This document shows positions 7,153-21,512 of a stretch of DNA of 41,735 bases, piece after piece; within the stretch, counting starts at the first letter, position 1, and each line of letters begins with the position of its first letter. The stretch spans positions 1 through 41,735 of IMG/VR virus record IMGVR_UViG_3300006805_000054; one strand, given 5' to 3'. Under the pieces are notes generated by a model. That model saw only the letters and a program-made list of their open reading frames with translations. It had not been told where the DNA came from and ran no database searches. Position numbers and translations under genes: made by a program. The stretch comes from a virus.

Positions 7153-7169
7153 CCCGTTTAGGAGACCCC

Positions 7170-8195
7170 ATGAGCGACCAGCCCGCACAGCCCGCCGACT
7201 TCGGCCCCCCGTTCCCGTACTTCGGCGGCAAGTCGATGGTTGCCCCGATCGTCTGGTCGGCGTTCGGTGACGTGGAGAACTACGTCGAGCCCTTCTTTGG
7301 GACCGGGGCGGTCCTGTTCCGCCGCCCCGGGGTTCGCGGCGTGGAGACGGTCAACGACGCGGACGGGCTGCTCGCAAACTTTTGGCGCGCGACCCAGCGC
7401 GACCCGGACGCGGTGGCGGAACACGCGGACAACCCGGTGAACGAGTGCGACCTGCACGCGCGGCACCTGTGGCTGAACGGCCAGCGTGACCGCATCACCG
7501 AGCGGCTCATGGGCGACCCGGACTTTTACGACGCGAAGGCGGCGGGGTGGTGGGTGTATGGCGCGTGCTGCTGGATCGGTGGCGGCTGGTGCAGCGAGAA
7601 AGGCCCGTGGGTGTCGGTTGACGGCGTGATGGTGCTGGGCGACGCGGGTAGTGGCGTGAAGCGCCAACGCCCGCACATGGGCACCGCGGGTACGGGCGTG
7701 AACCGCCAACTCCCGCACGTGTCCGGGTGCGACGGCAGGAGGGCGTACCTCAAAGCCATGCTCGCCGCGTACCGCGACCGCCTGCGGCACGTCCGGGTCG
7801 CGTGCGGCGACTGGTCCCGCGTCTGCGGGCCGTCCGTGACACACAAGCACGGCACGACCGGCGTATTTCTCGACCCGCCGTACTCCGCCGGGGCGGGGCG
7901 CGACATGAACTGCTACGCGGTCGATTGCGGGTCGGTCGCGCACCGCGTCCGCGAGTGGGCCGTCGAGGCCGGCAAGCGCAAGGACATGCGGATCATTCTC
8001 GCCGGGTACGAGGGGGAACACCCCATGCCGCCGGACTGGCGCGTGGTGGCGTGGAAGGCCAAAGGCGGGTACGGCAACCAGGCCGACGAGAACCCCAACG
8101 CGCACCGCGAGCGGCTGTGGATGAGCCCCGCGTGTGCCGCCGCAAACGACGACGGCTGCCTGTTCGCAAGCGCCAACGAAGGAGACCGCACATGA
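7170..8195 (+). CDS. D12-class DNA adenine methyltransferase (Dam-like)
   Basis: 341 residues; ATG preceded by TAGGAGA. The three family signatures are present in the D12 order: FPYFGGKS at residues 15-22 and VEPFFGTGA at 39-47 (AdoMet binding), then FLDPPYSAG with the catalytic DPPY at 235-238. The protein should methylate adenine N6; the recognition sequence cannot be read. Residues about 125-205 carry a Gly/Trp-rich insertion (WVYGACCWIGGGW, and two near-copies of a G-V-x-RQ-x-PH-type segment) seen in many phage-borne relatives. Overlaps the following gene by ATGA. It is the third methyltransferase in 6 kb. Confidence 0.9.
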   Translation: MSDQPAQPADFGPPFPYFGGKSMVAPIVWSAFGDVENYVEPFFGTGAVLFRRPGVRGVETVNDADGLLANFWRATQRDPDAVAEHADNPVNECDLHARHLWLNGQRDRITERLMGDPDFYDAKAAGWWVYGACCWIGGGWCSEKGPWVSVDGVMVLGDAGSGVKRQRPHMGTAGTGVNRQLPHVSGCDGRRAYLKAMLAAYRDRLRHVRVACGDWSRVCGPSVTHKHGTTGVFLDPPYSAGAGRDMNCYAVDCGSVAHRVREWAVEAGKRKDMRIILAGYEGEHPMPPDWRVVAWKAKGGYGNQADENPNAHRERLWMSPACAAANDDGCLFASANEGDRT

Positions 8196-8989
8196 TCGTT
8201 GACTCAACCATCCACATCGCCCACGTCGGCGCGCACGGCGCGAACCACTCGCCGTGGGTCCACCTCAACCTCCAAGACCTGAGCCCGCCCGGGCACGACC
8301 TGCTGACCGTCCTCCACGACCCCAAGGGCCGCAACGCCCGCATCGACGCCTGGGCCACCGCGCTCCGCACGTTCGACAAGGGCCTGCTTTACGTCAAGGG
8401 CCTCCGCAACGGGGCACCGCTCTCGGGCGTCTCGATCGAGGGCGAGCGGATGGTACCCGTGCCCCACGACACGAACATGATGCACAACTCCGACAGCATC
8501 CGCTCGCGCGGGCTGGCGATCGCGCGTGTGCTGTGGCAAATCGGCTGGGTCATGGGCGTTCCCCGCGTGATCCCCTACGGCTCGGCCCAGGTACTCGCGG
8601 CGTGGCTGAATAACCCAGACAACGTCCACGGCATTCAGTCTGTCACGTGGTATAGGTGGCACCGCACGTCCACGGGACATCTCCGCGGAGTGCCGCCGTG
8701 CCAGTCCTTCTACGGGTGGAACCAACCCTGGCTCATCGAAGCCGCACTCGATCGCCACGCGGCGTCGGGCCGCATCACGAAGTCCACGCCCCTCGTCGTG
8801 TTCATCGCTCCGACGGACACGAACGCGAGCATGCAGGCCGCTTCTGTCCGTAACCACCCCCTGCCGTGCCGCCTCGTCTCCTGGCACAAGGCCGACAAGG
8901 CGGACACCGCGACGGCCGGGGTTGACGCCGTGAAGAAGCTCGCGGCGGACACCGGCCTGACACTCGGGTGCGAGGTGGCCAATGGGTGA
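8192..8989 (+). CDS. Hypothetical protein
   Basis: 265 residues; ATG overlaps the previous stop with AGGAGA upstream. No family is recognised. The N-terminal part (DSTIHIAHVGAHGANHSPW) and a central GLAIARVLWQIGWVMGVPRVIPYG segment suggest a globular alpha/beta enzyme-like fold; SVTWYRWHRTSTGHLRG and a VVFIAPTDTNASM strand-turn are distinctive. Several His residues (H9, H13, H17 region and HDTNMMHNSD) could bind metal, but no canonical metallo-enzyme motif is complete. Codon use matches its neighbours. Confidence 0.7.
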   Translation: MIVDSTIHIAHVGAHGANHSPWVHLNLQDLSPPGHDLLTVLHDPKGRNARIDAWATALRTFDKGLLYVKGLRNGAPLSGVSIEGERMVPVPHDTNMMHNSDSIRSRGLAIARVLWQIGWVMGVPRVIPYGSAQVLAAWLNNPDNVHGIQSVTWYRWHRTSTGHLRGVPPCQSFYGWNQPWLIEAALDRHAASGRITKSTPLVVFIAPTDTNASMQAASVRNHPLPCRLVSWHKADKADTATAGVDAVKKLAADTGLTLGCEVANG

Positions 8990-9416
8990 TCCCAAAGTGA
9001 CGTTTCCGGGCGTGGTCGTGCTCCCGGGCGAGGAGGCGGCCATCGCCCGAGCCGTCGCCATCGGCGACGAGTGGGGGTACGGCAACCTGATCGTCAGGCT
9101 CCAGGAGGCTTGGGGCAGGCGCCTCAAGGACAAGTGGGGGGTAGGCGACGGGAGCCCCCACCCGTGGGGCGGGTACGCCTACGACGACTACAAGCGGGAG
9201 TTGAAGGCGCTCGAGGACAAACTGGCGGCGGCTGTCGTGGACGTCTCCACCCTCCATTCCGAGGTCCGCAGGCTTGCGGCAGAGCTGGCGGCCGGCAGCG
9301 TGCCCGCGGGGAAGTGGACGCCGGACTCATGGGAGGCAATGGTGAGCGAGGACGCACGCCCCGCGATGGGGATGGCCCCGCGTCCTAAACCGCAACCAAA
9401 GCGCAATCACAAGTGA
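8982..9416 (+). CDS. Hypothetical coiled-coil protein
   Basis: 144 residues; ATG eight bases before the end of the upstream gene, in another frame. The N-terminal 70 residues look globular (DEWGYGNLIVRLQEAWGRR, HPWGGYAYDDYKRE), followed by a clear helical coiled-coil stretch at about 70-105 (LKALEDKLAAAVV, TLHSEVRRLAAELA). The tail is Pro/Lys/Arg-rich (RPKPQPKRNHK). Similar phage proteins annotated only as hypothetical place the tyrosine/tryptophan segment before a coiled coil. It is the last gene of the early block and its stop lies inside a 9-bp inverted repeat. Confidence 0.7.
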   Translation: MGDPKVTFPGVVVLPGEEAAIARAVAIGDEWGYGNLIVRLQEAWGRRLKDKWGVGDGSPHPWGGYAYDDYKRELKALEDKLAAAVVDVSTLHSEVRRLAAELAAGSVPAGKWTPDSWEAMVSEDARPAMGMAPRPKPQPKRNHK

Positions 9417-9542
9417 AATCGGCACTTGTGAAGAACCTCCGCGCACGCACCCGAGGAGCCGAGCGTGGGTGACAGACAGGTGACACTAAGGGAAGAACGC
9501 AGGTGTCCCACGGAGCGGGACACGCGGGACAGGCGGGACACA
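9407..9542. promoter_or_regulatory. Repeat-rich junction between early and late blocks
   Basis: Three structures lie in a row in this gene-poor stretch. (1) A 9-bp inverted repeat, TCACAAGTG at 9407-9415 and CACTTGTGA at 9423-9431, overlaps the upstream stop. (2) The heptamer GGTGACA occurs at 9468-9474 and again at 9479-9485, 11 bp apart, about one helical turn. (3) GTGTCCC (9503-9509) and GGGACAC (9517-9523) form a 7-bp inverted repeat, and CGGGACA recurs three times at a 9-bp period (9516, 9525, 9534). These look like operator or iteron sites. The last set could instead encode a Gly/His-Ala repeat if the downstream gene starts at GTG 9503. Confidence 0.5.
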
Positions 9543-9604
9543 CGGCAGGAGGCCCGCACCAGGCGCACGGCGGCGCGGGGACCAAACGCACAGGACGCGA
9601 GAAC

Positions 9605-9934
9605 ATGGGATACAGAGGCGAGATGCTCAAAGGGGTGGACGCGAACCGGGAGGCGCAGGTGGCAGCGTTCCGGGAGATGCAGGAGGGCTCACGCAACATC
9701 GGGAGGGGTTCCCCGGTGGTGGTAGACCGTGGTATGGACGAGTCAGAGCACTTCGCGGGCTGGGTCATGGAGTCCAGGCGTGGGCTCGTGGACTCTCTGC
9801 TGGTCCTGCCGATCAGCGAGCCAAACCGGAGGGACCGCTACCGCCACATCTGCGCTGACCAGGCGAGGCGACCGACGGCAAGAGAGCTGGCCGGGTATGG
9901 GCTGGACAAAGCCCCACGCCCACGAAAGACTTAG
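9605..9934 (+). CDS. Hypothetical protein
   Basis: 109 residues from ATG 9605. An in-frame GTG at 9503 would add 34 residues of low-complexity Gly/His/Ala sequence encoded by the iteron-like repeats, so the later start is preferred, though neither has a strong ribosome site. The protein is charged and helical: EMLKGVDANREAQVAAFREM, then SEHFAGWVMESRRGLVDSLL and a basic tail (APRPRKT). No family recognised. It opens the second block and precedes the first promoter-hairpin element by about 150 bases. Confidence 0.6.
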   Translation: MGYRGEMLKGVDANREAQVAAFREMQEGSRNIGRGSPVVVDRGMDESEHFAGWVMESRRGLVDSLLVLPISEPNRRDRYRHICADQARRPTARELAGYGLDKAPRPRKT

Positions 9935-10083
9935 ACCAGGCATCCATCCTGTTAGGTATTCCCAAACGGCGAGGGGAAGTCGGGCAGTTCTATCTGCACA
10001 TCGGGCGCGTCGCAATGGCGGCGAGGCGGGGGTGCGCGAGGCGTGCGGTCCCACATCTGGCCGCGCGGTGGTCGGAGCAAGGC
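9935..10083 (+). other. Gap with an open frame lacking a normal start
   Basis: No gene is called here. One frame stays open from 9859 to a TAA at 10084-10086 with a GC-rich third position and sensible residues (GIPKRRGEVGQFYLHIGRVAM, described in parts), but the only standard start in the open part is ATG 10015, which has no ribosome site and gives 23 residues. It is the -1 frame relative to the gene ending at 9934. It may be a decayed gene, a frameshifted extension or chance. Confidence 0.3.
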
Positions 10084-10122
10084 TAATGTTCGCCGGTTGC
10101 ACGGGCGCCAAGGGGCGCCGCC
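10084..10122 (+). promoter_or_regulatory. Promoter-hairpin leader 1
   Basis: TAATGT (10084-10089) is a -10-like hexamer. Five bases later comes GGTTGCACGGGCGC, where the GG at 10095 would suit a transcription start. GGCGCC (10104-10109), loop AAGG, GGCGCC (10114-10119) forms a 6-bp hairpin whose loop and first stem bases give the ribosome site AAGGGG, seven bases before ATG 10123. No -35 box is evident. Same architecture as the elements before 11838, 16350 and 18228. Confidence 0.6.
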
Positions 10123-11793
10123 ATGCTGACCTACAACGATGTCGGAGACGTCTACCCCCCGCGTGGCGACCAGCGATGGGCGGTGATCGGTGCCCTGTTT
10201 CTCCGGGCCGCATCCGGCCAGGTGCATGTCGCCCTGATCGACGACAGCCAGGGGACGATCGGCGGCTCATACGGCGGCGGACCGTGCGCCCTGATGATGA
10301 TGCTGAACCAGGCGAGCGGGACCAAGATCCCCGGGACGCCGTGGATGCCGGCTCGCGCCCGCGGATCGACCGGGGGCTATTTCCCGGCGTCGCACACGGC
10401 GAGAAGCCCGAGCAACGTCGGGACGATCGACCAGAGCAAGTTCCCGCCGGGGTTCGCAGGGCCGATCAGCCCCGCGGCGCCGTACCCAGGAGATTTCGGC
10501 AGCGCGGACGCTGGCCTCGGCGTGTGCATGATGCCGGACTCGCTCCGCGTCGAGCACAACATCGACATGATCTGCCAGGGGCAGACCAGCCTGCTCACGA
10601 AGGACGACACGAACTGGTACATGGACGTGCTCGCCGTGGGGTGCAACGACGCGAATGTCCACGGCGGGACCGCCGGCGATGAGATCACGGTGAATGCGTG
10701 GAAGGGGTCGCAGCCCGCGATCTACTTCGGCGGCGGGTCGCCCGCTGGCACGCTCACGTTCAGCAACACCTCGACCGCCCTGGACCTCACGACGGTCGGC
10801 GTGGACGACCCCGCGGCTGTCCACACGGTCGGTCCCTTCCCGTTCGGTGCCGAGAACTACATCGGGGCGCGGGCAACGGGCGGGCAGGCGGGCAAGGTCC
10901 GCATCGGCGCCTTCCGGGTGTACCACCGCACCGAGCCGGGCTGGTTCGTGCATGTGTTCTCCGAGGGCGGCTACCGGATCATCGCGTCGTCGTCCTGGTA
11001 CACCGACCACGCCAACAGCGGCCCGTTCTTCCGCAAACTGTTCTCCGTGGCGCGGGATGAAAAGCCGGACCTGTCGATCTTCGGCCTTGGCACCAACGAC
11101 ATCTTCGGTGCTTCCCCCCGGTCGGCGGAGGAATACAAGGCGGAGATACGGCTGTTCTTCGACTGGTACTGGGGCGAGAGCGGGGGTTGGCACCCCACGA
11201 TCATCAAGGGCGAGCCGTGGCGGGGCGACTCGGCGACGTCGAACTACGCCACCTACATCGTCGAGTACGGCAAGATGGCGGGTGCGATCAAGGAGTTGAT
11301 CGACGAGGGCTACCCGATCCTGTTCTACAACGGGCTGCTGTCGAGCGTCCGCTACTCGGGCAGCCTGACGGCCGCGTACCTGAGCGAAACGATCTTCCTG
11401 GACGACTTCTCAACGCTGGTCAACGCCGCCGGTCCGGTGACGATCACACAGAACGTCCACTACGTCTCGCACCTGCGGCGCGGGCACTTTCAGCATTTCC
11501 TGTGGACCGGTGCAACGACGACCATCGGGACTGCCGGCGTCATCAGCTCGACGCGCCATGGCCCTGGTGGCGACCTGACGATCGGGGCGCCGGTCAGCGC
11601 GGCCCCGGTGGACTCATGGCAGCCGATCTTCCCGGAGGCTGGACGCCAGGGCAACGTGGGGGCCGGGGCGCCAAACGACTTCGTGCATCTGTGCTCGTCC
11701 GGCCAGCAGGAGGAGTGGGCCAGGTTCACGCGATCGGCGCTCGGCGCCGCCGCAGCGGTCAGGCCCGCACCGAACCGCATCTATCGCCGGTGA
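10123..11793 (+). CDS. SGNH/GDSL-hydrolase-like virion protein
   Basis: 556 residues. SGNH signatures: VALIDDSQGT with the candidate nucleophile Ser42, GLGTNDIFG with Asn325 (block III), and NDFVHLCSSGQQEEWARF with the Asp519-x-x-His522 pair (block V). SGNH enzymes deacetylate or de-esterify glycans, and in phages they occur on tail fibres and tailspikes where they trim host surface polysaccharide. About 280 residues between blocks I and III are beta-rich (ITVNAWKGSQPAIYFGGG, TLTFSNTSTALDLTTVG) and probably form a carbohydrate-binding or structural jelly roll. It is the first gene after promoter-hairpin leader 1. Enzyme class likely; substrate unknown. Confidence 0.75.
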   Translation: MLTYNDVGDVYPPRGDQRWAVIGALFLRAASGQVHVALIDDSQGTIGGSYGGGPCALMMMLNQASGTKIPGTPWMPARARGSTGGYFPASHTARSPSNVGTIDQSKFPPGFAGPISPAAPYPGDFGSADAGLGVCMMPDSLRVEHNIDMICQGQTSLLTKDDTNWYMDVLAVGCNDANVHGGTAGDEITVNAWKGSQPAIYFGGGSPAGTLTFSNTSTALDLTTVGVDDPAAVHTVGPFPFGAENYIGARATGGQAGKVRIGAFRVYHRTEPGWFVHVFSEGGYRIIASSSWYTDHANSGPFFRKLFSVARDEKPDLSIFGLGTNDIFGASPRSAEEYKAEIRLFFDWYWGESGGWHPTIIKGEPWRGDSATSNYATYIVEYGKMAGAIKELIDEGYPILFYNGLLSSVRYSGSLTAAYLSETIFLDDFSTLVNAAGPVTITQNVHYVSHLRRGHFQHFLWTGATTTIGTAGVISSTRHGPGGDLTIGAPVSAAPVDSWQPIFPEAGRQGNVGAGAPNDFVHLCSSGQQEEWARFTRSALGAAAAVRPAPNRIYRR

Positions 11794-11799
11794 GCCGGG

Positions 11800-11837
11800 T
11801 ATAGTTGCCCGGTTGCCCGGGCGCCAGGAGCGTCGCC
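11800..11837 (+). promoter_or_regulatory. Promoter-hairpin leader 2
   Basis: TATAGT (11800-11805), a good -10 hexamer, then five bases and GGTTGCCCGGGCGCC, nearly identical to leader 1. The hairpin is weaker: GGCG (11820-11823) with CGCC (11834-11837), with AGGAG in the loop, seven bases before GTG 11838. It begins within ten bases of the previous stop codon. Confidence 0.6.
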
Positions 11838-12461
11838 GTGGCACCCATCCTCACACACCCGTGTGCGCTCAACAAGACAGCCGTGGTCACGGTTCAGGAC
11901 CGCTGGGCGCCATGCTCGATCGACGAAAGCAACCAGAACGGGACGTGGACGACCAACAGCGGCGCCCTGAGCGCCGCGTCGTCGTACATCCACCAGACGG
12001 CGGCACCGTCCGGCGCGTCCGCCGCTACCAACGGTCGGTATGTGGTGACGAACATCGAGCCATGCAACCGGCTGGAGTTCCGGTTCGCGGTGAACGACTC
12101 CAGCGACCCGAACAACATGGTGGTTGTGGGTCGCCTGTGGCTGCTCGACGAGGCCGGGGTATCCAACGACGTCACGGAACTGCTCGGCGAGTACGCCGGC
12201 GACCTGACGATCACCAGCGGCAACACCGCGCTCGCCACGGGCTCGAAGATGCTCAACGCCACCGGCACCTCGAAGTGGGCCGACACCATCGCGTTCTCGC
12301 CCGACCGCACATACGGCGGCGCGCAGGTGGTGGGGAGCGTTGCCGATGACGCCGCGGCTGTTCTGAGTGTGGATTTCCGCGGCAAGCGCGGGTACGTTCT
12401 GGAGTTGAGTTCAACCGGCGGGAGCGCCGACGCGATCCTGCCCATGCACCGGCGAATCTGA
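11838..12461 (+). CDS. Putative beta-rich virion protein
   Basis: 207 residues from GTG 11838, chosen because the AGGAG ribosome site in the leader lies seven bases upstream; the frame can be extended to 11805 only by entering the leader. The composition (Ser/Thr/Asn/Val, few Lys) and segments such as RLEFRFAVNDSSDPNNMVVVGRL and GSKMLNATGTSKWADTIAFS point to a beta-sandwich typical of head decoration or fibre-associated proteins. No family is recognised. A similar flavour is seen in the products of 26360, 32449 and 37045. Confidence 0.65.
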   Translation: MAPILTHPCALNKTAVVTVQDRWAPCSIDESNQNGTWTTNSGALSAASSYIHQTAAPSGASAATNGRYVVTNIEPCNRLEFRFAVNDSSDPNNMVVVGRLWLLDEAGVSNDVTELLGEYAGDLTITSGNTALATGSKMLNATGTSKWADTIAFSPDRTYGGAQVVGSVADDAAAVLSVDFRGKRGYVLELSSTGGSADAILPMHRRI

Positions 12462-12487
12462 TCCGCACAGCCTGGAGGCCCCCCACG

Positions 12488-13201
12488 ATGTCCTGGTACG
12501 ACCCCGACGCCGTTCTGACCTACCCCTCCGACCTGACATGGGAAAAGGCGATGGTGCTCCTGCACCACTACGAGGTGGGCCGGAAGACCAACGACCGCAT
12601 GGTGCGGTGGCGCGAGATGATCGACGCCATTTACACCAAGCACGGTTTCCAGGCGTTCGACGCGGCGACGGAGCTGCGAGAGAACGACAGCCCCACACTC
12701 CTCCTGTTCGAGCCCGGCAAGCCGCACTCCGAGCGGCATCGGCTGCCCGAAACATGCTTCCGCGATCCGGTTCCCCTGTTCGCCGCGATCAACGACGCCG
12801 AGCGGCGGCACAACGAGAGGTACGAGGCGCTCCACGAGAAGTACCGCAACGACAAGGCCGCCGGCAAGAAGGTGTCCGAGCCGGCCATCAAGAAGGTGCT
12901 CCTCACGCAGATGCCCAGCCAGGAGGACACCGCCGGGCTCGGGCTCACCCAGGCCCAGCCTGCGACCGCGGCGATGCGCGAGGGCGATGTCGTGATGAAC
13001 GGGTCAACCCCCTGCGAGCTGGTGCGGGAGAACGGCCGCATGGTGCTCCGCCCGCTCGCGGTGATGCAGCCGCCCGAGGTCGCGGCCCCCGTTGGCGATG
13101 ATCGTGCCCAGCGTCCGGCCCGGCGCAAGGAGCCCAAGCGAAAGGCCGAGCCGCCACCCCCGCCGGCGAAGGCCCGCAAGAAAGGTCATCGGGTGGCCTA
13201 A
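12488..13201 (+). CDS. Hypothetical protein with Pro-rich basic tail
   Basis: 237 residues; TGGAGG ribosome site before the ATG. Residues 1-130 look globular and helical (DLTWEKAMVLLHHYEVGR, REMIDAIYTKHGFQAF, AAINDAERRHNERYEALHEK). The rest is linker-like, with a short beta-hairpin (GSTPCELVRENGRMVLRPL) and a disordered basic end (EPKRKAEPPPPPAKARKK). The tail suggests binding to DNA or to acidic partners. No family assigned. Its stop codon abuts the start of the LuxR-type gene. Confidence 0.65.
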   Translation: MSWYDPDAVLTYPSDLTWEKAMVLLHHYEVGRKTNDRMVRWREMIDAIYTKHGFQAFDAATELRENDSPTLLLFEPGKPHSERHRLPETCFRDPVPLFAAINDAERRHNERYEALHEKYRNDKAAGKKVSEPAIKKVLLTQMPSQEDTAGLGLTQAQPATAAMREGDVVMNGSTPCELVRENGRMVLRPLAVMQPPEVAAPVGDDRAQRPARRKEPKRKAEPPPPPAKARKKGHRVA

Positions 13202-13459
13202 ATGGTGATGGAGCCAACGCCCCCAAGGCTCCCCACCTTGTCGGAGATGAGCGCTCTGACGCGATGCGAGCGCGATGTACTCCGGCTTGTCGGGTTGTGC
13301 AAGTCAGACCGTGAGATCGCCAGGGCGTGCAGCCGAACCGTCGGCACCGTCAGGTTCCACCTCTACCACATCAGGGTCAAGCTCGGCGTGCGGCGCCGCG
13401 AGCACCTCGCGCTGGTGGCGGTTCTTCGCGGGCTGTCTCGGGCCCCTTCTGATCTGTGA
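13202..13459 (+). CDS. LuxR-type (GerE) helix-turn-helix protein
   Basis: 85 residues, almost nothing but a GerE DNA-binding domain: LTRCERDVLRLVGLCKSDREIA (about 19-40), then TVGTVRFHLYHIRVKLGV (47-63) with the recognition helix, then REHLALVAVLRGL. Stand-alone GerE domains dimerise on operator DNA; without a receiver or autoinducer domain, activity would be set by its level alone. It starts directly after the previous stop, and no strong ribosome site is visible, so it may be coupled. It lies inside the late region and its 3' end overlaps a convergent minus-strand gene, so it is a candidate regulator of late transcription. Confidence 0.8.
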   Translation: MVMEPTPPRLPTLSEMSALTRCERDVLRLVGLCKSDREIARACSRTVGTVRFHLYHIRVKLGVRRREHLALVAVLRGLSRAPSDL

Positions 13460-13760
13460 CATGGTCCATATCCACGACCAGCACGAGGAGCGATCGCCCG
13501 TCGGACGGGTCGGCCGTCAGTATGGCGGCGTTCCGCTCCGTGCCCTCCACGACGTCGAAGCGTCGCCCGGGGTACTGCTCGTGGCTCGGCAGCGTCAACC
13601 AGCAGATGCCGCGGTCGATCGGGGCGGCGTGGCCGCGCTCGAGGACGGCAAGCAGCCACGGGTCACTGGCCATCTTGGCGACCAGCGCCATGGCGGACTC
13701 GGGCGTGAGGCGTTCGAGGCGTTCCTTGGCTTCCTCTGCGCGGGGGTGCAGGCTGGGCAT
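13377..13760 (-). CDS. Sole minus-strand gene, hypothetical
   Basis: 127 residues from the ATG complementary to 13758-13760. The minus frame has a strongly GC-rich third position and a natural composition (RAEEAKERLERLTPESAMALVAK, then SDPWLLAVLERG and AAILTADPSDGRSLLVLVVD), whereas the opposite-strand frames read as Ser/Arg-rich noise. No ribosome site is apparent; a TTG at 13827-13829 is an alternative start. It converges on the LuxR-type gene with an 83-base overlap and diverges from the putative small terminase gene 17 bases away. No family is recognised. In an otherwise one-directional genome this looks like an inserted accessory gene or an antisense regulator gene. Confidence 0.65.
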   Translation of the reverse strand: MPSLHPRAEEAKERLERLTPESAMALVAKMASDPWLLAVLERGHAAPIDRGICWLTLPSHEQYPGRRFDVVEGTERNAAILTADPSDGRSLLVLVVDMDHVTDQKGPETAREEPPPARGARGAARRA

Positions 13761-13777
13761 GAAAGGACGGTAGGAGC

Positions 13778-14218
13778 ATGAGCCGATACCCAGGACGGCG
13801 CGGCAGGACGGGGAAACTGGTTCGGTCAACCGGGCCGATCGAGGTGAGGCCAGACGAGCCGCCCGCCAAACCAGACTTCGAGATCGGGCTCGGGATCACC
13901 AAGGCGCTGCGGTTCCTTGCGACCCGGCTGCGGGCTGGCAAGATGGCCACCGACGAGCTGGACAACACGATCAAGTTCGCGGTGAGGATCAGGGACAGCA
14001 AGAAGGCCAACCCGACGGCCCAGCTCGCGGCGGCGAACCTCATCCGGCTCATCAACGCCGACCTGGACCGCACCGCGGCAAGGCTCATCAGGGCCGAGGC
14101 CGACGTCACGATGGGCGGAGCCGGCAGCGGCGGGACCACTGTTGGGGCCACGGCGAGCGGCGACCCAAAGGCCGGTGGCGGAGTGACGGTCAACATCCTG
14201 ATCGCCGGGCGGCCTTGA
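13778..14218 (+). CDS. Putative small terminase subunit
   Basis: 146 residues; ATG with AAAGGA about nine bases upstream. The N-terminus is basic (RYPGRRGRTGK); residues 45-110 form helices (IGLGITKALRFLATRLRAGK, NTIKFAVRIRDSKK, AAANLIRLINADLDRTAARL); the tail is Gly/Thr-rich. The assignment rests on position immediately before the large terminase, size, and a helical core with a basic N-terminus that could recognise packaging DNA. No sequence signature of a known small-terminase family is obvious, so another role is possible. Confidence 0.5.
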   Translation: MSRYPGRRGRTGKLVRSTGPIEVRPDEPPAKPDFEIGLGITKALRFLATRLRAGKMATDELDNTIKFAVRIRDSKKANPTAQLAAANLIRLINADLDRTAARLIRAEADVTMGGAGSGGTTVGATASGDPKAGGGVTVNILIAGRP

Positions 14219-14233
14219 TGGGGGGGTGCTGGT

Positions 14234-16312
14234 GTGGGCTCCTCGATCAACTTCTATCTGGAGCCCAAGCAGATATCGTTCTTGCAGGCCGCCGATGACG
14301 AGGTGCTGTACTCGGGCGGGTTCGGCGGCGGCAAGACCCTGATGGTGTGCCTCAAGGCGTTTGTGCGTGCCCAGCACCCCAGGGCGGTCGAGGTCCTGTG
14401 CCGGGCGGTCGAGGCGGACGTGCATGACACGATCCTGCCCACGCTGTTTGAGGGCAACGGCGCCACGCCGGCAATCCTGCAACCGGGCTGCTACATCTGG
14501 AACAAGGCGCGGAAGTGGATTCGGCTGCTGGGGCCGGGGCAGATGCCGCTCGGCATAATCCGATACCGCGGGCTAGGCGCGCACAACCAGCACAACCTCG
14601 AAAAGATGGGGTTCCGCGGTCAGAACGTGACCGGGGTGGGGATAGATCAGGTCGAGGAGATCAGCAGCAAGCAGTACAACAACGTGCTGGGGCGCGTCCG
14701 CGTGACGGACGAGGGCTTGACGCGGCAGGTCTACGGATCTGCGAACCCGTCCGCGCCGTCACACTTCCTTGCCCAGCGGTTCGGGATCAGGTCGTCCCAC
14801 TCGCCGGAGGTGACGCCCGAGATCGTGACGACGCTGGAGGCCAACGGGCGCAAGAACACCCTGCGGGCCATCCTGACGTGCCCGGCGGAGAACCCGCACC
14901 TGCCCGCCGACTACCTCGCTCGCCTTGCGTCCTACACAGGCGTCGAACGCCTCCGCTATGTGCTCGGGCGGTGGGTGGCGTCCGAGGGCATCGTGTACGA
15001 CAACTTCCTGCGGGACACCCACGTCAAGGACCGGCCGGGCCCGTGGGCACGCGCCATCGTGGCGATCGACGACGGCACCTCGAAGCCCGCGGCGATGCTG
15101 CTGGTCCTGATCGACCACGACGGGAAGCGGCACTACGCCGAGGAGTGCCACCGGGCGGGCATGAGCGACCACGAGAAGGTCATGCGGGTGGAGGCGTGGA
15201 GCCACAAGTACGGGCCGCTCGACGCGGTGGTGGTGGACCCGGCAGCCGCGGCGCTGAAACTGTCGCTGTCCCGCGTCGGGCTCCCCGTGTTCGACGGCCG
15301 CAACGAGGTCAGGCCCGGCATCAGCGTTGTTCGTTCGGGGCTGGACCCGGGCGTGGACGGCGAGCCGGGGTGGACCATCGCGGAGCGGTGCGTGAAGACC
15401 ATCGGGGAGCTGGAGGGGTACATGTGGGACCCCAACAGCAAGGACGAGAAGCCGATCAAGAGGGACGACCACGGGCCGGACGCGATCCGGTACGCCGAGC
15501 AGCACCTCTACGCCCCGCCGGCGCTGGTCTTTGCGATCGACCCCGACATGGAGGCGGTGGCAAAGCACGCCCAGGCGGCATGGCGGGGAACACTGGTGCA
15601 TGAGCACCCGATCGGGCGCGAGATGGACATGAGCCTCGCGGCTGGTCGGTGGCGGGACATCACCCTCGAGCGCGACGCCAAGGGACCGCTGCGGCTGTGG
15701 CGGAAGCCGGTCCGCGACCTTACGGCAAAGATCAACATATTCGTCTCGGTCGGGCACGGGCAGAATCAGAGCCACCTGGTCATGGCGGACATGCGGACGA
15801 AGCAGATCACGGGCGAGTTCGTGGCACCCATCACGCCCGAGCGGCTTTCGCGGGTAGCGGCCATGCTGGCGCTGTACTTCGGCGACGAGGACGGGCAGGC
15901 GTCCGTCGGCGTCATGGCCAACACCCCGGGCAAGGTGTTCGCGCAGAGCCTTGGGCAGATCGGGTACGGGGCGGACCTGTGGGAGCCGGACCCCAAGGAG
16001 TTCGCCGAGGCGGTCGGGATGCTGCGGGCGGCGTGGGAGACGCGGGCGTTCGCCGAGCCGACCGCGCAGGCGATTGCAACCGCCCGGCAGTACGTCTACT
16101 CGGGCTCGACGATCATGCACGCGAGCCTGGTGGGCGACATGGAGCGCCGGGGCCAGTACGCCGACGGCATCATCGCCCGCGCGGGCCTGTGGCGGGCTAT
16201 CGCGGGCCAGGAATACAGCCACGACCCGGGGCTGGAGCACCTCCCCAGCACACTTGGCGACCTGCGGGAGCGGGCAAAGGCCGGTTTGATCCGCACGGGC
16301 ACGAGGCGCTAA
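14234..16312 (+). CDS. terL: Terminase large subunit with extra C-terminal domain
   Basis: 692 residues from GTG 14234. The ATPase motor has GGFGGGKT (28-35, Walker A) and VGIDQVEEI with Asp138 and Glu141/142 (Walker B and catalytic Glu). A complete nuclease domain follows: Asp279 in VAIDDGT, VVVDPAA near residue 335, and Asp416 in HGPDAIRYA, the metal ligands of the RNase H-like fold. It packages DNA into the prohead and cuts concatemers. The protein is unusually long. Residues about 495-665 look like another terminase-nuclease fold (NIFVSVGHGQNQSHLVMADM, EFVAPITPERLSRVAAML, VGVMANTPGKVFAQSLGQIGY, ADGIIARAGLWRAI), but the expected acidic ligands are missing. Confidence 0.92.
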   Translation: MGSSINFYLEPKQISFLQAADDEVLYSGGFGGGKTLMVCLKAFVRAQHPRAVEVLCRAVEADVHDTILPTLFEGNGATPAILQPGCYIWNKARKWIRLLGPGQMPLGIIRYRGLGAHNQHNLEKMGFRGQNVTGVGIDQVEEISSKQYNNVLGRVRVTDEGLTRQVYGSANPSAPSHFLAQRFGIRSSHSPEVTPEIVTTLEANGRKNTLRAILTCPAENPHLPADYLARLASYTGVERLRYVLGRWVASEGIVYDNFLRDTHVKDRPGPWARAIVAIDDGTSKPAAMLLVLIDHDGKRHYAEECHRAGMSDHEKVMRVEAWSHKYGPLDAVVVDPAAAALKLSLSRVGLPVFDGRNEVRPGISVVRSGLDPGVDGEPGWTIAERCVKTIGELEGYMWDPNSKDEKPIKRDDHGPDAIRYAEQHLYAPPALVFAIDPDMEAVAKHAQAAWRGTLVHEHPIGREMDMSLAAGRWRDITLERDAKGPLRLWRKPVRDLTAKINIFVSVGHGQNQSHLVMADMRTKQITGEFVAPITPERLSRVAAMLALYFGDEDGQASVGVMANTPGKVFAQSLGQIGYGADLWEPDPKEFAEAVGMLRAAWETRAFAEPTAQAIATARQYVYSGSTIMHASLVGDMERRGQYADGIIARAGLWRAIAGQEYSHDPGLEHLPSTLGDLRERAKAGLIRTGTRR

Positions 16313-16349
16313 GGTTCATGGGTTGCACGGGCGCTCAGAGAGCGCCGCG
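16310..16349 (+). promoter_or_regulatory. Promoter-hairpin leader 3
   Basis: TAAGGT (16310-16315) overlaps the terminase stop codon. After five bases comes GGTTGCACGGGCGC. GGCGCTC (16330-16336), loop AGA, GAGCGCC (16340-16346) is a perfect 7-bp hairpin, ending four bases before ATG 16350. The purine loop AGAGA is the only candidate ribosome site and is weak. Spacing from hexamer to stem is 20 bases, exactly as in leaders 1 and 2. Confidence 0.6.
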
Positions 16350-18170
16350 ATGCTGACCAACCGCTCCACGATGCCTGACGCCGCGAGACTCCTGCGGTTT
16401 ATCCGGGAGGCGAGGCGGTCCCCGGCGTCTCCGGTGCATCGGCTGTCCAGTTTTATCAAGATCGCGCACCGGCAGATCGGCGGGGCCTGGTGGGCTGGCG
16501 GGGCATCGGTTGGCGGACGGACGTTCTCAAACTCAGAGCCGTACTCGATGCTCGGTGAGACGGTCCGCACCTATCTCCCGCACCTGATGGGTGACGGGAT
16601 CATGCCCACGATCGACCCGCTGATGTCCCAGAACCGTGGCTGGGCGAAGATTCTGCAACTGCGGATGCGCAAGTGGGTGGACGACACCGGGTACGTCGGC
16701 ATCGACGAGGCGTGCCTCCTGGACGCCCTGTGCGGGATCAGCGTGCAGTACGTGATGCGCAACGTGGGCGGCCCGATGTTCTCCGACGGGGCCGACATGA
16801 TCGACACCGGCTCCCCCGTGGCGCTCCGCGTGCCGATCGAGCGGATGGTGGTGTCGCCAGATGCGGAATCGTGGGACACAGCGCCGGGCATCGGGCACTA
16901 CTACGAGGCGGATCGGTCGGCCATGCTCGAACGCGGCGTTGGAAATCCGGACGTGCTGATGAAGTGCCGGAACGTCTGGGACCAGAGCGATTCGGACATG
17001 GTGGCGCGGGAGGAGAAGTACGACGGCGACCGGACATCCGACCAGTACCTTGAGGACAAGATCAGGCTCTACGACCTGGTGTACACCTACGCCGGGCGTC
17101 GGTTCTGCTGCACGCTCCCGGCTGAGGAGGGGCACGAGGGCTTCGTTGTGGACCCATACGAGATCATCGACGAGCCCGAGGGGAGCCGGTACGTCGTCAC
17201 GGCGCTCAACACAATCCCCGGGAGCCTGACGCCGGTATCGCCGGCGATGGTCATCATGGACGCCCACCTTGCCAAGTCGCGGGCGCTGTCGAAGCTCATG
17301 GAGCAGATCGAGACGCTGAAGCGCAAGTTCGTGTTCAAGCCGGGCCAGCAACGGTTGGTCATGTCGCTGCTGGACCCCAACGGCGATGCGTGGGTGGCGG
17401 GTGACCCCGACTCGTTCAAGGAGACGGTCATCGGCGGGATGGTCAAGGAGCTGCTGGACGGGTACGGGTTCCTTGACGCCCTCGGCAAGCAGATCGGTCC
17501 GAACGTGCAGCTCGCGGGCGGGAGCGATGATCCGTCGGACACGGCGACGGGAACAAGCGTGCTCGCCGGCAACGCCGCGGTGGTGCTGGGGTACTGGAAG
17601 CGCAAGATCAACGATGGTCGCACGGCGGTCCTGCGCCGGGTGGCGTCGATGCTGACCAACTCCTACGAGCGGATGGAGTTCGAGATTCCCGCCGGCCCGG
17701 GAGTGTCGATCCCGGTCGTGTGGGAGCCGTCGAGGCACCAGCTCTCCTACGACATGTTCAAGTACGGGGTGAAGCCGTCGTCGAACATGGCGGGCATGGA
17801 CGCGCGGGCGAGGCTGCGGAGCATGGCCGAGCTGTTCACGGCCCTGCCGAACATGGTGCAGGTGGTTGTCGGGCTTGGCGGCGACCCGAGCAAGGTGGTC
17901 CGCGTCCTGTCCGACCTGGCGGAAGCCCCGGAACTGGACGAGATGCTGCCGACGCCGGATATGCGGTCGATCCAAATGCTGCTGCTCCAGAACCTTGGGC
18001 AGTCCGGGAGGTTGACCCCGGGCGGAATGCCGGGCATGGCCCCAGGAATGGCCCAGGGCATGGTGCCGGGCATGGCGCCGGGCATGGCCCAGGGTCAGTT
18101 ACCAGCCGCGGGCCCCATGACGCCCTTGGCGCAGGTGCAGTCTGACGCAGGCAGGTCGGTCCCGGCGTGA
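16350..18170 (+). CDS. Portal protein
   Basis: 606 residues from ATG 16350, placed by the hairpin leader; the extension to 16323 enters the leader. Assigned by position after the terminase, size and fold cues: an N-terminal helical/beta region (YSMLGETVRTYLPHLMGDGI), a long helical stem (AHLAKSRALSKLMEQIETLKRK), and a helix-rich end (GYWKRKINDGRTAVLRRVASML). Portals are dodecameric rings at one vertex through which DNA enters and leaves. The last 45 residues repeat PGM/AQGM units (GMPGMAPGMAQGM), a flexible Met/Gly/Pro tail seen in some short-tailed phages. No strong signature motif, so the call depends on context. Confidence 0.78.
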   Translation: MLTNRSTMPDAARLLRFIREARRSPASPVHRLSSFIKIAHRQIGGAWWAGGASVGGRTFSNSEPYSMLGETVRTYLPHLMGDGIMPTIDPLMSQNRGWAKILQLRMRKWVDDTGYVGIDEACLLDALCGISVQYVMRNVGGPMFSDGADMIDTGSPVALRVPIERMVVSPDAESWDTAPGIGHYYEADRSAMLERGVGNPDVLMKCRNVWDQSDSDMVAREEKYDGDRTSDQYLEDKIRLYDLVYTYAGRRFCCTLPAEEGHEGFVVDPYEIIDEPEGSRYVVTALNTIPGSLTPVSPAMVIMDAHLAKSRALSKLMEQIETLKRKFVFKPGQQRLVMSLLDPNGDAWVAGDPDSFKETVIGGMVKELLDGYGFLDALGKQIGPNVQLAGGSDDPSDTATGTSVLAGNAAVVLGYWKRKINDGRTAVLRRVASMLTNSYERMEFEIPAGPGVSIPVVWEPSRHQLSYDMFKYGVKPSSNMAGMDARARLRSMAELFTALPNMVQVVVGLGGDPSKVVRVLSDLAEAPELDEMLPTPDMRSIQMLLLQNLGQSGRLTPGGMPGMAPGMAQGMVPGMAPGMAQGQLPAAGPMTPLAQVQSDAGRSVPA

Positions 18171-18227
18171 CAGCGGGCGGGTTAGGCGATACGATGCCCG
18201 CGAGAGGTGGAGCTAAGGAGCTCCACT
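18167..18227 (+). promoter_or_regulatory. Promoter-hairpin leader 4 with sigma70-like boxes
   Basis: GTGACA (18167-18172) and TACGAT (18190-18195) are 17 bases apart, a good -35/-10 pair. GTGGAGCT (18207-18214), loop AAGG, AGCTCCAC (18219-18226) is a perfect 8-bp hairpin one base before GTG 18228. The loop and next two bases give AAGGAG, seven bases from the start. The GGTTGC block of leaders 1-3 is absent but hexamer, hairpin and start spacing are the same. Confidence 0.65.
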
Positions 18228-18737
18228 GTGCGGACGATCGACACCCACTGCAACAACCTGTGCAACCAGGCTATCCGTGTCGAGGCAATCGACGAGCCAG
18301 GGTGCGGCGGCGCGAACCACAAGTACAACATCATCGGACCGTCGCGGCAAATGCTCGGCGTCGGCGAGGTGCCGACGTTCGGCCTGAACATCCGCTTTCA
18401 GGATGGGCCGCTCAAGGAAGCGGGTGTCAACGGCGTCACGAACGAGGCGCTGCTGGCGGTGCTGATCGACCGGATGCGGGGATTCCAGCGCGGGCCGTTC
18501 GCGTGTGATGAGAACGCCGCGGTGCTGACGGCGCTCGAAACGGCGATGGCGATCCTGCACGCCAGAACGCAGAGGCGAGACAAGGCGGGCGTCGAGGGCA
18601 CGCACGGCAAGGCTCCGGGCGACGGGGCGTTTGTTGACCTGGAAGCCGACGCGATGCCGAACGAGGCGATCCGCGTTCCGATCAAGCAGACCGGAATCGT
18701 GGGTATGGGTGCCGACGCCGCGGAGGCCGGGGCATGA
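18228..18737 (+). CDS. Acb2/Tad1-like hairpin-domain protein (putative nucleotide sponge)
   Basis: 169 residues from GTG 18228; the earlier ATG at 18207 lies inside the hairpin. An N-terminal beta-type part (NHKYNIIG, LNIRFQDGPLKEAGVNG) leads into the conserved helical hairpin: TNEALLAVLIDRMRGFQRGP (71-90), FACDENAAVLTALETAMAIL (91-110), HARTQRRDKAGVEGTH (111-126). This ENA...RT..R..GVEGTH pattern is the one I associate with the Acb2/Tad1 family, phage proteins that bind cyclic nucleotide or gcADPR-type signals and so blunt CBASS or Thoeris defence. Members are widespread and most are untested, so ligand and activity here are inference. It heads an eight-gene cassette and has its own promoter-hairpin leader. 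Confidence 0.65.
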   Translation: MRTIDTHCNNLCNQAIRVEAIDEPGCGGANHKYNIIGPSRQMLGVGEVPTFGLNIRFQDGPLKEAGVNGVTNEALLAVLIDRMRGFQRGPFACDENAAVLTALETAMAILHARTQRRDKAGVEGTHGKAPGDGAFVDLEADAMPNEAIRVPIKQTGIVGMGADAAEAGA

Positions 18738-19018
18738 GCCCGGTGAACCCGAACGACAAGTACGTGGCCGTGTGCATGTCGAAGGTGCGCCGGAGCGAAG
18801 AGGGCGCCAAGGAGCACGCGGCGGCGTTCAGGAAGCGGCACCCCGGGAGCAAGGCGCACGAGTACGAGTGCCACGTGTGCGGCTACTGGCACGTGTCGTG
18901 CAACACCGCGACCGCCAAGTACATGCGCAAGAGCAGCGGCACACCGGCAAGGGCGAGGTACACGAAGCGGGTGCGGGCGCACGAGGAGCGGCTGCGGCGG
19001 GAGAGGGAGGGAGAATGA
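18734..19018 (+). CDS. Small basic zinc-ribbon-like protein
   Basis: 94 residues; ATG overlaps the previous stop. A single CHVC pair at about 50-53 followed by GYWHVSC, with a further Cys, resembles a minimal zinc ribbon of the type common in phage proteins (YxCxxCxxWH). The remainder is Arg/Lys-rich (KVRRSEEGAKEHAAAFRKRH, HEERLRREREGE), consistent with RNA or DNA binding. No named family. It overlaps the following gene at ATGA. Confidence 0.65.
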   Translation: MSPVNPNDKYVAVCMSKVRRSEEGAKEHAAAFRKRHPGSKAHEYECHVCGYWHVSCNTATAKYMRKSSGTPARARYTKRVRAHEERLRREREGE

Positions 19019-19848
19019 GGGTTCAGTGCCCAGATTGCGATCGGTTCTTTGACGACCTGTACCGATGGGCGGTGTGCCCCCACCGATCACTCGGCGAATC
19101 ACCTCACGGGGCGGAGACGAAGCACATGACGGACCCGCGAAGCGACGAGTTCAAGCACCCTGAGGGCGATGAGTCGAAGGCCATCGACGCCATCCCGGCC
19201 GGCGTAGACACGGCAAAGTCGCTGGCCGAAGAGGGCTTGCGGCCTGGTGACTTTCTGCGGACGGACACGGGCGGCACCATCCAGACCAGCAACGACACGC
19301 CACCCGACGTTTTCAGAAAGCCGCACAGCACTACCCGGGCATCGTGCGGGCGCGTGGTCCACGTCTACTCGAACCGCTGGGAGGGCCCACGCCCCGGAAT
19401 CGTGACGCAGGCGTGGGGCGTCGGTTACGGGCGTCAACTCATCAACGTGACCGTCATCCCCGACGGCTGCAACGACCGCGGCTGGGTCGAGAATCATGCC
19501 GCGACCGGGCAGGGCACCAGCCTGGGCAGTATCGGCCTGTACGACCCGATGACGCCGGAGGATCGCACGTCACTCCTGCATCCTCCCGCAACGGGGCAAG
19601 ACCGCCCCGCCCGTTACCACGCCGAGTGGATGCCGTTCCAGGCCGGGCAGGCGGCGAAGACCGAGGACGTCACGAAGACGCTGGCGGCACGGGTGGCCAA
19701 GGTCGAGGACAACACCAAGACCGTGGCTGGCGCCGCCGCGCTCCTGCGCGACGCGATTCTGCTCCTGATGAAGAGTCGGGCCCTGTCGCTGTCGCAGACC
19801 GACCCGGCCACATACAGCGCCGTTATGGAAGCCCTCGGCAAGAAGTGA
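19015..19848 (+). CDS. Phage protein with N-terminal zinc-knuckle and central beta domain
   Basis: 277 residues. Residues 1-30 (VQCPDCDRFFDDLYRWAVCPH, described in part: Cys5, Cys8, Cys21, His23) match a short stand-alone phage zinc peptide. A second potential start (MTDPRSDEF, residue 38) suggests two genes fused into one frame. Residues about 110-175 (NRWEGPRPGIVTQAWG, LINVTVIPDGCND) match a common small phage domain of unknown role. The C-terminal 75 residues are helical (KTLAARVAKVEDNTKTV), and may trimerise. Terminator-like element B follows its stop. Confidence 0.7.
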   Translation: MRVQCPDCDRFFDDLYRWAVCPHRSLGESPHGAETKHMTDPRSDEFKHPEGDESKAIDAIPAGVDTAKSLAEEGLRPGDFLRTDTGGTIQTSNDTPPDVFRKPHSTTRASCGRVVHVYSNRWEGPRPGIVTQAWGVGYGRQLINVTVIPDGCNDRGWVENHAATGQGTSLGSIGLYDPMTPEDRTSLLHPPATGQDRPARYHAEWMPFQAGQAAKTEDVTKTLAARVAKVEDNTKTVAGAAALLRDAILLLMKSRALSLSQTDPATYSAVMEALGKK

Positions 19849-19858
19849 CCCCCCAGTC

Positions 19859-19888
19859 CCGCTCGCGGCTGGCGACGGCCGCGGGTGG
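19859..19888 (+). terminator. Hairpin terminator-like element B
   Basis: After the stop and a C-run, CGCGGC (19864-19869) pairs with GCCGCG (19878-19883), loop TGGCGACG, and the stem can be extended outwards through G-T pairs to about 19859-19888. TTTG follows. The loop shares GGCGACGG with element A, and both have C-run plus GTCCC before the stem. Confidence 0.5.
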
Positions 19889-19906
19889 TTTGCGAGAGGA
19901 GTAGGC

Positions 19907-20443
19907 GTGAGCAACAGGCAAGACGACAACCCCGGATACCCGATCGTTCCAGGCGCTGTGGACCACATCGACGACGAAGCCCTCTTGGTTGAGTTGATAG
20001 AGATGCTGGAGTCGCCCGAGTTCATCAGAAAGCGCCTCGGTTATGACCACTGGCGGGTTGGATCGTTTGACGTACTTCGGGCGAGATTGTTTGAGGTGCG
20101 GCGTCGGGCGAGCCCCGAAGCGTCGCACACCCGCCGATTCCGGAAGAAGCCCGTCGAGGTCGAAGCGATCCAGTGGTGGCCACCTGGTCATGTCGGGCAC
20201 GTGCCCGTCATCGGCGTCGAAAGGGGGCCACGCGCGGACCAGCCGTGGGGCGTGCCGACGCTCGAAGGGTTCATGGTCGCCAACCCTGGCGACTGGATCA
20301 TCACGGACGTCAAGGGCGAGAAGTACCCGTGCAAGCCCGACATCTTCAAGGCGACGTACGAGCCGGTTGACCAGCCAAAGGGATTCTGGGGCGGCTTGGT
20401 CGAGAGGGTTTTTCGGCCGAACACCGTGCCGGCCAAACAGTGA
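19907..20443 (+). CDS. Conserved phage protein (RFRKKPVEVEAIQW family)
   Basis: 178 residues from GTG 19907 with AGGAG upstream. The C-terminal half carries a widespread phage module: RFRKKPVEVEAIQWW (about 80-94), GVPTLEGFMVANPGDWIITD, then KGEKYPCKPDIFKATYEPVD. It is small, probably beta-rich, and is usually annotated only as a phage protein; its function is not known to me. The N-terminal 75 residues (DDEALLVELIEMLES, VLRARLFEVRRRA) are helical and particular to this copy. It is flanked by terminator-like elements B and C, so it may be a single-gene unit. Confidence 0.75.
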   Translation: MSNRQDDNPGYPIVPGAVDHIDDEALLVELIEMLESPEFIRKRLGYDHWRVGSFDVLRARLFEVRRRASPEASHTRRFRKKPVEVEAIQWWPPGHVGHVPVIGVERGPRADQPWGVPTLEGFMVANPGDWIITDVKGEKYPCKPDIFKATYEPVDQPKGFWGGLVERVFRPNTVPAKQ

Positions 20444-20453
20444 CCCCCAACGG

Positions 20454-20488
20454 GCGCCGTGGCCGGTGTGTGCCGGCCCGGCGCTTTT
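20454..20488 (+). terminator. Rho-independent terminator C
   Basis: GGCCGG (20461-20466), loop TGTGTG, CCGGCC (20473-20478); past one bulged T, GCGCCG (20454-20459) pairs with CGGCGC (20479-20484). TTTTC follows directly. The best terminator in the window. It lies between the stop of the upstream gene and the ribosome site GAAGGAG of the DUF3307-like gene. Confidence 0.75.
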
Positions 20489-20503
20489 CACGAAGGAGCG
20501 ACC

Positions 20504-20869
20504 ATGCAGTACGGCTACATCCTGTTCCTCATGCTGATGGCCCACGCCGTCTGCGACTTCGCACTCCAGTCAGACTGGATGGCCAAGGCCAAGGCGTCGA
20601 TCGTGCAGTCCGCGGGCCTGCCGTGGTGGTACGTCATGGCGATGCACTGCCTCATCAACGCGGCGGGCGTCTACGCCGTGGCGGCGTATGTCGGCGTGTC
20701 GGCCCCGCTCTGCGCCATGATCGCCGCGATGGAGTACATCGCGCACTTCGCAACCGACGCGACCAAGAGGCGGCTCTACATCAGCGCCATTTCAGACCAG
20801 GCGTTTCATGTCGTTGCCAAGGCCGCGTGGGCGTGGGTGTGCGTTGTCGGCGTCGAGGGGGCGGCATGA
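20504..20869 (+). CDS. DUF3307-like membrane protein
   Basis: 121 residues; ATG with GAAGGAG ribosome site. Four hydrophobic segments: ILFLMLMAHAVCDFALQ, YVMAMHCLINAAGVYAV, PLCAMIAAMEYIAHF and FHVVAKAAWAWVCVV. The polar positions typical of DUF3307 are present: H14 and D18 in AHAVCDF, Q22SDW, HCLIN, EYIAH with TDATK, and SDQAFH. The family is small, four-helix and found in phages and prophages; function unproven, possibly membrane remodelling or superinfection-related. Overlaps the next gene at ATGA. Confidence 0.82.
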   Translation: MQYGYILFLMLMAHAVCDFALQSDWMAKAKASIVQSAGLPWWYVMAMHCLINAAGVYAVAAYVGVSAPLCAMIAAMEYIAHFATDATKRRLYISAISDQAFHVVAKAAWAWVCVVGVEGAA

Positions 20870-21123
20870 GCAATCCAGACCTAGACGACCGCGAGCGGCG
20901 CCGAATGCAGGACGTGCTGGAACAGGCGAGGAAGCTGGTGGAAGGCGCCGGGTTCGACGCCGCGATCATCATGGCGACGTACCAGACCGAAGAGGGCGAC
21001 ACCGCCTGCGTGCATGCCAACGCCGGCAACTGGTACGCGCAGCTCGGGATGGCAACGAGCCTGATAACGCGGCGGAAAGAACAGGACGCGCTCGAACAGC
21101 GTCAAAAAGAAGAGGAGGACTGA
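20866..21123 (+). CDS. Small conserved phage protein
   Basis: 85 residues; ATG overlaps the previous stop. N-terminal helix (DDRERRRMQDVLEQARKL), then GAGFDAAIIMATYQTEEGDT and GNWYAQLGMATSLITRR, a pattern shared by many small phage proteins in which a strand ending in T is followed by GNWYA. No biochemical function is known to me. The acidic/basic C-terminus (QRQKEEED) lies three bases before the next start. Confidence 0.65.
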   Translation: MSNPDLDDRERRRMQDVLEQARKLVEGAGFDAAIIMATYQTEEGDTACVHANAGNWYAQLGMATSLITRRKEQDALEQRQKEEED

Positions 21124-21125
21124 CG

Positions 21126-21512
21126 ATGCCGCTCTACCCAATCAAGTGCGGGTGTGGCTTTGCGGGCGACGTGTTCGCCAAGGTGGGGGAACTGGACTCT
21201 GGGGGACAACTCTGGTGCCCCTTGTGCGGCACCAGGGCGGAGCAGGACTACGCCCGCAAGGCCATCGGGGTCTTGCGGAACGAGCTCCACGGGCGCCGCC
21301 GCGAGAGCATCGAGATCGCGGCAAAGCCCCACGAGGTCGCGCGGCTGCGACGCATGTACGGCGACTCGGGCAAGTGCTGGCAGGATGACGGATCCGTGCG
21401 GTTCACCGACAAGAGCGACGCCGCGGCGTTCTTCCGCAAGGAGGAAGAGGTCAAGAAGCGTCTGCGTGAGAAGAAGGCCGCGCGTGACGCCAAGGCGAAG
21501 GGGAAGGTGTGA
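21126..21512 (+). CDS. Zinc-ribbon phage protein
   Basis: 128 residues; GAGGA ribosome site just upstream. The N-terminus has Cys8 and Cys10 (KCGCGF) and a CPLC pair near residue 32, the layout of an FmdB-like or zinc-ribbon head. The centre is helical (KAIGVLRNELHGRRRES), and GKCWQDDGSVRFTDKSDAAAF is a recurring phage motif. A long charged helix ends the protein (EEEVKKRLREKKAARD). Probably nucleic-acid associated, role unknown. GTG of the next gene overlaps its stop. Confidence 0.7.
   Translation: MPLYPIKCGCGFAGDVFAKVGELDSGGQLWCPLCGTRAEQDYARKAIGVLRNELHGRRRESIEIAAKPHEVARLRRMYGDSGKCWQDDGSVRFTDKSDAAAFFRKEEEVKKRLREKKAARDAKAKGKV

Follow-up and report, generated by a model that had tools for sequence, protein, structure and literature searches.

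What is gained when four genes of one phage begin behind the same compact arrangement of a short hexamer, a hairpin and a start codon? The arrangement is found in IMG/VR record IMGVR_UViG_3300006805_000054, whose 41,735 bases are referred to here as the window. The record comes from an uncultured GC-rich phage (67% GC), and every predicted gene lies on the + strand. A sequence-only reading had described a TAnnnT hexamer, a hairpin and a start codon recurring before the genes at 10123, 11838, 16350 and 18228, and the coordinates and spacings it gave are correct. Judging from the sequence, we consider it likely that all four elements are self-contained gene starts, each composed of a host sigma-70-type promoter and a short folded leader. 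The compact promoter-hairpin arrangement probably makes each of the four genes its own transcription unit.

Layout of the Four Elements

The TAnnnT hexamer is located 39, 38, 40 and 38 nt upstream of the start codons ATG 10123, GTG 11838, ATG 16350 and GTG 18228, respectively. These gene starts are predicted ones, and other in-frame starts are available upstream of 11838, 16350 and 18228. In all four elements a stem-loop closes 0-3 nt ahead of the start codon. The hexamers, all on the + strand, are TAATGT in copy 1 (10084-10089), TATAGT in copy 2 (11800-11805), which is the sole TATAnT on that strand, TAAGGT in copy 3 (16310-16315), where TAA is the stop codon of the terminase gene, and TACGAT in copy 4 (from 18190). 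Copies 1-3 make up a three-member family of direct repeats (30 nt, 77-80% identity), and the view that they represent one shared element is borne out; their likeness runs from TAnnGTT to the start codon. The sequence GGTTGCNCGGGCGC is found exactly three times genome-wide. The distance from hexamer to stem is 20 nt in copies 1-3 only; copy 4, with a distance of 16-17 nt, has the same layout without clear sequence similarity to the others.

Among 45 gene starts, the four genes with TAnnnT at 36-42 nt upstream compare with an expectation of 0.12. A minus-strand control gave nine TAnnnT/start-codon pairs at the same spacing, none of which had a stem of at least 5 bp. It should be mentioned that all statistics given here come from one genome with two independent element types, and that the features were defined post hoc. 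Copies 1-3 could be duplicated intergenic scrap, with copy 4 a coincidence, and it fits such an origin that copies 1 and 3 have even their first codons, ATGCTGACC, in common. However, copy 4 combines hexamer spacing and stem in a way that is rarely met, with no case in the minus-strand control, and we find this explanation barely credible.

The Hexamer as a Promoter

The TAnnnT pattern is avoided about 4-fold across the whole window, on both strands. The + strand has 16 occurrences against 73-74 expected from Markov models, and its reverse complement is also depleted, with 15 against 63 expected. Inside genes there are 9 occurrences, compared to 55 ± 7 under synonymous-codon shuffling. The observed/expected ratio of 0.16 is the lowest among 576 gapped trinucleotides of the form XY-n(0-8)-Z, a ranking limited to patterns expected at least 20 times. 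The 3-nt gap is specific, since neither TAnnT (ratio 0.89) nor TAnnnnT (ratio 0.83) is depleted like TAnnnT. Four of the 16 surviving + strand hexamers, that of copy 1 among them, are those of the four elements. Such avoidance agrees with the selection known to act on -10 boxes in the wrong place (PMC1939733). Many other GC-rich phage contigs also avoid TAnnnT, with ratios of 0.12-0.9. The reading of TAnnnT as a live host-type -10 box is well supported by these counts, and the avoidance does not mark this phage as special. The few TAnnnT surviving outside genes could be listed as a promoter finder for GC-rich uncultured phages.

Copy 4 has, in addition, a putative -35 element. Its promoter, GTGACA-17-TACGAT (18167-18195, + strand), agrees at 9 of 12 positions with the sigma-70 consensus (a TATAAT-like TAnnnT as -10 and TTGACA as -35 at 16-18 nt), and the -35 overlaps the stop codon of the portal-like gene. 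It is the only sigma-70-like match in positions 1-20000; positions 20001-40000 give none.

The elements had been taken for a dedicated late promoter. The promoter part of this proposal is upheld by the TAnnnT avoidance and the specificity of the 3-nt gap. However, "dedicated late" is unsupported, because the hexamer is a generic sigma-70 -10, joined in copy 4 by a -35 to match, and because the four genes include one for a Tad1-like anti-defence protein; such a protein would be of a kind useful early.

A small DNA-binding protein of the LuxR/GerE type (sigma region 4-like) is encoded at 13202-13459 (+ strand), between copies 2 and 3, and is a candidate regulator of the element promoters.

Hairpins and the Predicted State of the Start Codons

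The predicted hairpins lie on the + strand close to the start codons. In copy 1, GGCGCC-aagg-GGCGCC (10104-10119) ends 3 nt before ATG 10123, with a folding energy of -13.2 kcal/mol and a z-score of -2.4. In copy 3, GGCGCTC-aga-GAGCGCC (16330-16346) ends 3 nt before ATG 16350 and has the same energy (-13.2 kcal/mol, z -2.7). The stem of copy 2, GGCGC-cagga-GCGTC with one G.U pair (11820-11834), ends at the same distance from GTG 11838 and reaches -6.7 kcal/mol (z -0.6). Copy 4 has the most stable stem, GGTGGAGCT-aagg-AGCTCCACT (18206-18227), with 9 bp including one G.U; it abuts GTG 18228 and is predicted at -14.1 kcal/mol (z -4.8), with none of 200 shuffles equally stable. Stems of its class, scoring at least 8, end within 4 nt of just 0.2% of window positions. 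No Rfam model matches within the window at the gathering score, a tRNA scan was negative, and none of the four stems resembles an intrinsic terminator, with a T run after a GC stem.

The sixth stem pair is C-G in copy 1 and U-A in copy 3, so that pairing is kept. Together with the comparison of copy 4 to copies 1-3, this single pair change suggests that structure is conserved over sequence within this genome. A second apparent compensation, between the A/C of GGTTGC[AC] and the AUG/GUG start, was dropped, since the copies are predicted to pair in registers one base apart. The palindrome might instead be a DNA operator or the site of a phage protein just downstream of the promoter. The sequence conservation of copies 1-3 does extend beyond the stem, and the ESAS inverted repeats of mycobacteriophages were once considered DNA-protein sites (PMC3203893). 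An operator is quite improbable, however, given that copy 4 has a stem of unrelated sequence in this position and that pairing is retained between copies 1 and 3.

According to the sequence-only reading, the loops hold a Shine-Dalgarno (SD) or a purine-rich stretch and so present the ribosome site. The purine-rich part of this description stands for the loops AAGG, CAGGA and AAGG of copies 1, 2 and 4. In copy 3, however, the loop AGA is not an SD, and its best duplex with the anti-SD has -2.9 kcal/mol, compared to a genome median of -7.3. A usable SD is found in three copies, and good SD duplexes in copies 2 and 4. Loops of 3-5 nt, the range of the four hairpins, are too small for anti-SD pairing unless the stem opens. 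By the predicted cost of opening positions -15 to +6, the four starts rank 3, 5, 6 and 8 of 44 among the most buried (exact rank-sum p = 0.001), and the remaining gene starts are more open than random positions. The predicted state of the four starts is closed, not presented. A hairpin that displays its SD, and thereby raises or equalizes translation or protects the mRNA, would agree with the purine-rich loops and with the good duplexes of copies 2 and 4; the known SAS motifs of mycobacteriophages also hold an SD core between GGG and CCC (PMC3203893). Display of the SD is nevertheless improbable with loops of this size, one copy lacking an SD and start regions that are unusually closed, and the proposal of a ribosome site offered in the loop is not supported.

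A Possible Outer Helix and Read-Through RNA

Folding of the whole leaders suggests a possible further helix over the start codon. Its 5' arm, GGUUGC in copies 1-3, could base-pair with the start codon together with codons 2-3, and a comparable helix in copy 4 would join CCGCG to UGCGG. The DNA of this 5' arm, GGTTGCA in copy 1 (10095-10101), GGTTGCC in copy 2 (11811-11817) and GGTTGCA in copy 3 (16321-16327), all on the + strand, is also the predicted transcript start region. The whole leaders, with the start codon paired, have energies of -19.8, -18.1, -23.5 and -22.9 kcal/mol for copies 1-4, the value of copy 4 referring to its read-through form; the z-score of copy 3 is -3.3. Trimming to the predicted +1 drops the outer pairs and keeps the inner stem. 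Compared to random coding tails, the outer-helix pairing gives p values of 0.12, 0.07, 0.06 and 0.30, and the outer helix is only suggestive.

Such folding recalls phage T4, where the SD and/or AUG of genes e, soc, 49 and I-TevI are sequestered in an RNA helix and the late-promoter transcripts of gene e lack the 5' part of the structure (PMC3014915). As at gene e, the SD and/or the start codon of the present elements is predicted to be paired in a stable helix, with promoters positioned immediately upstream, where they fall within the structure's 5' strand. T4 differs in its late promoters (TATAAATA, recognized with gp55) and in that the transcript from the gene e promoter sheds the inhibitory structure, whereas the inner stem of the present elements is predicted to stay.

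A lock of this kind might operate here: read-through RNA would fully bury the start, and RNA from the gene's own promoter, beginning inside the 5' arm, would lose the outer helix and be translated. The T4 precedent, the paired start codons in the whole-leader folds and the loss of the outer pairs on trimming speak for such a lock. The outer-helix pairing, however, is weak against random coding tails, and the strong inner stem would persist in both kinds of RNA, unlike at gene e. We regard the lock as possible but doubtful. A more general form of it, which we consider unlikely, would be a portable promoter-plus-lock cassette, with transcription starting in the 5' arm of a start-burying helix and the gene shut in read-through RNA until its own promoter fires, a design that would have arisen at least two times in one genome from unrelated sequences.

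Proposed Mechanism of a Self-Contained Gene Start

For the favored reading, a self-contained gene start, we propose that a host sigma-70-type promoter with TAnnnT as its -10 would start the transcript 6-8 nt downstream. The resulting 5' leader of about 26-28 nt would be mostly one stable hairpin reaching the start codon. The promoters overlap or closely follow the stop codons of the genes before them, which would create four separate transcription units in a co-directional gene array. By keeping the SD and the start region folded and poorly accessible, the hairpin may restrain translation or make it dependent on an unfolding factor, possibly a ribosome terminating on the upstream gene or a binding protein. 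Protection of the 5' end from decay, as a cap, is a further possible role of the hairpin.

Several observations weigh against this reading or limit the evidence for it. Because copies 1-3 are homologous, the four elements amount to just two independent events. The avoidance of TAnnnT is common in GC-rich phage contigs and therefore backs the hexamer in general, not these four sites alone. Copies 1-3 show the -10 only, with no clear -35, and shuffles of a 20-kb region also yield one sigma-70-like match of the kind seen in copy 4. Strong stems are restricted to copies 1, 3 and 4, the stem of copy 2 being marginal and not significant alone. Compared to random positions, the four starts are not individually extreme, as 6-32% of positions are as closed.

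Comparison with Known Phage Start Elements

Cluster K mycobacteriophages carry SAS, GGGATAGGAGCCC, 3-7 bp before gene starts, about half with ESAS (PMC3203893), for which a SigA-like promoter was later described (PMC11373665). In the phages Anaya and Pixie, TAnnnT is found mostly 23-29 nt before SAS where ESAS is present. The cluster K arrangement has the same order as the present one and a similar promoter-to-element spacing: a TAnnnT -10, then a short SD element with complementary ends (GGG-ATAGGAG-CCC), then the start, before several genes (PMC3203893, PMC11373665). In contrast, the sequence of SAS is unrelated and allows only 3 potential pairs, and SAS occurs 11-19 times per genome outside structural genes, compared to four times here, around terminase and portal. 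ESAS includes TTGACA, and its promoter is surrounded by a 17-bp inverted repeat. The 13-bp GGGATAGGAGCCC consensus, with up to 2 mismatches, is in none of the four leaders, and by inspection the four upstream regions share no 17-bp imperfect inverted repeat of the ESAS type. Measured against the 3-7 nt between SAS and the start, the present elements lie 0-3 nt before it, and copy 3 has no usable SD; for the SigA-like -35/-10 pair of ESAS, spaced 17-18 bp, the -10 is found in four copies and the -35 in copy 4 only. Since sequence, inverted repeat and copy number are not shared, we do not class the phage as a member, but by analogy the element appears to work like SAS/ESAS, with a stronger stem.

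Cluster EF phages of Microbacterium have their own SAS, GGGAAAGGACCCC (PMC7302621). This motif, too, recurs immediately in front of gene starts, contains an SD and has complementary ends, with a conserved block upstream; it differs in sequence, in host, in its ten copies and in its weak potential stem (PMC7302621). SAS and ESAS have been known since 2011 and their function is unsettled. The same order of host-type -10, short folded SD element and start, with a much stronger stem and in a phage without detectable close relatives, suggests that this way of insulating genes recurs among phages, and the present phage offers a cleaner system for testing that design.

Relatives and Look-Alikes

A megablast search against phages gave no match. 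Viral contigs searched with the terminase, portal and capsid-candidate proteins, and genome contigs searched with the terminase, contained no close enough relative. An alignment-based terminase search found distant relatives at 31-39% identity, which share neither the portal nor the element. One further candidate relative, L016, was rejected as a spurious low-complexity match. Scans for the element pattern in viral and genome contigs gave matches at chance level only, none with the hairpin-plus-start layout, and the combination of TAnnnT and hairpin is not clearly enriched at other GC-rich loci. An isolated look-alike is present in a 71% GC contig (L090:8988-9026), where TAGGCT is followed by TGCACGCC-AAGT-GGCGTGCA, ending 1 nt before the GTG of an open reading frame of about 75 aa.

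In another IMG/VR contig (L022, 45% GC), AATTC-nnnGAAAG-GAATT occurs in four copies directly before ATG, at 45-79, 321-355, 1525-1559 and 6644-6678. Like the present element, it is a short stem that recurs immediately ahead of start codons and encloses a purine-rich, SD-like loop, and the terminases of the two phages are related (34%). The L022 hairpins differ in being AT-rich and of unrelated sequence, with no TAnnnT at a fixed distance, and this family is independent of the present element.

Genes at the Elements

All genes described here are on the + strand. Copy 1 precedes a gene for a 556-aa protein (10123-11793), whose match to GDSL lipases is very weak, and copy 2 a gene for a 207-aa protein (11838-12461) that matches no family. 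The portal-like gene after copy 3 (16350-18170) follows the terminase large subunit gene and has a weak SU10_portal match (E 3e-4, below the curated cut-off). Copy 4 precedes the gene of the Tad1-like (Thoeris anti-defence 1) protein (18228-18737, 169 aa), which adjoins the portal-like gene; the protein matches PDB 8kbb (E 1e-15), PDB 8y6v (phage gp184, E 5e-16) and PHROG 2428 (E 3e-30).

The window also encodes a terminase large subunit (14234-16312) and an SU10-type adaptor (25461-26348). The terminase is extended at its C-terminus by about 240 residues (about 450-692) that are absent from four aligned phage terminases. Three DNA methyltransferase-like genes, two of the N6_N4 type and one of the D12 type, are located in the left third of the window (2213-3427, 3406-4578 and 7089-8195).

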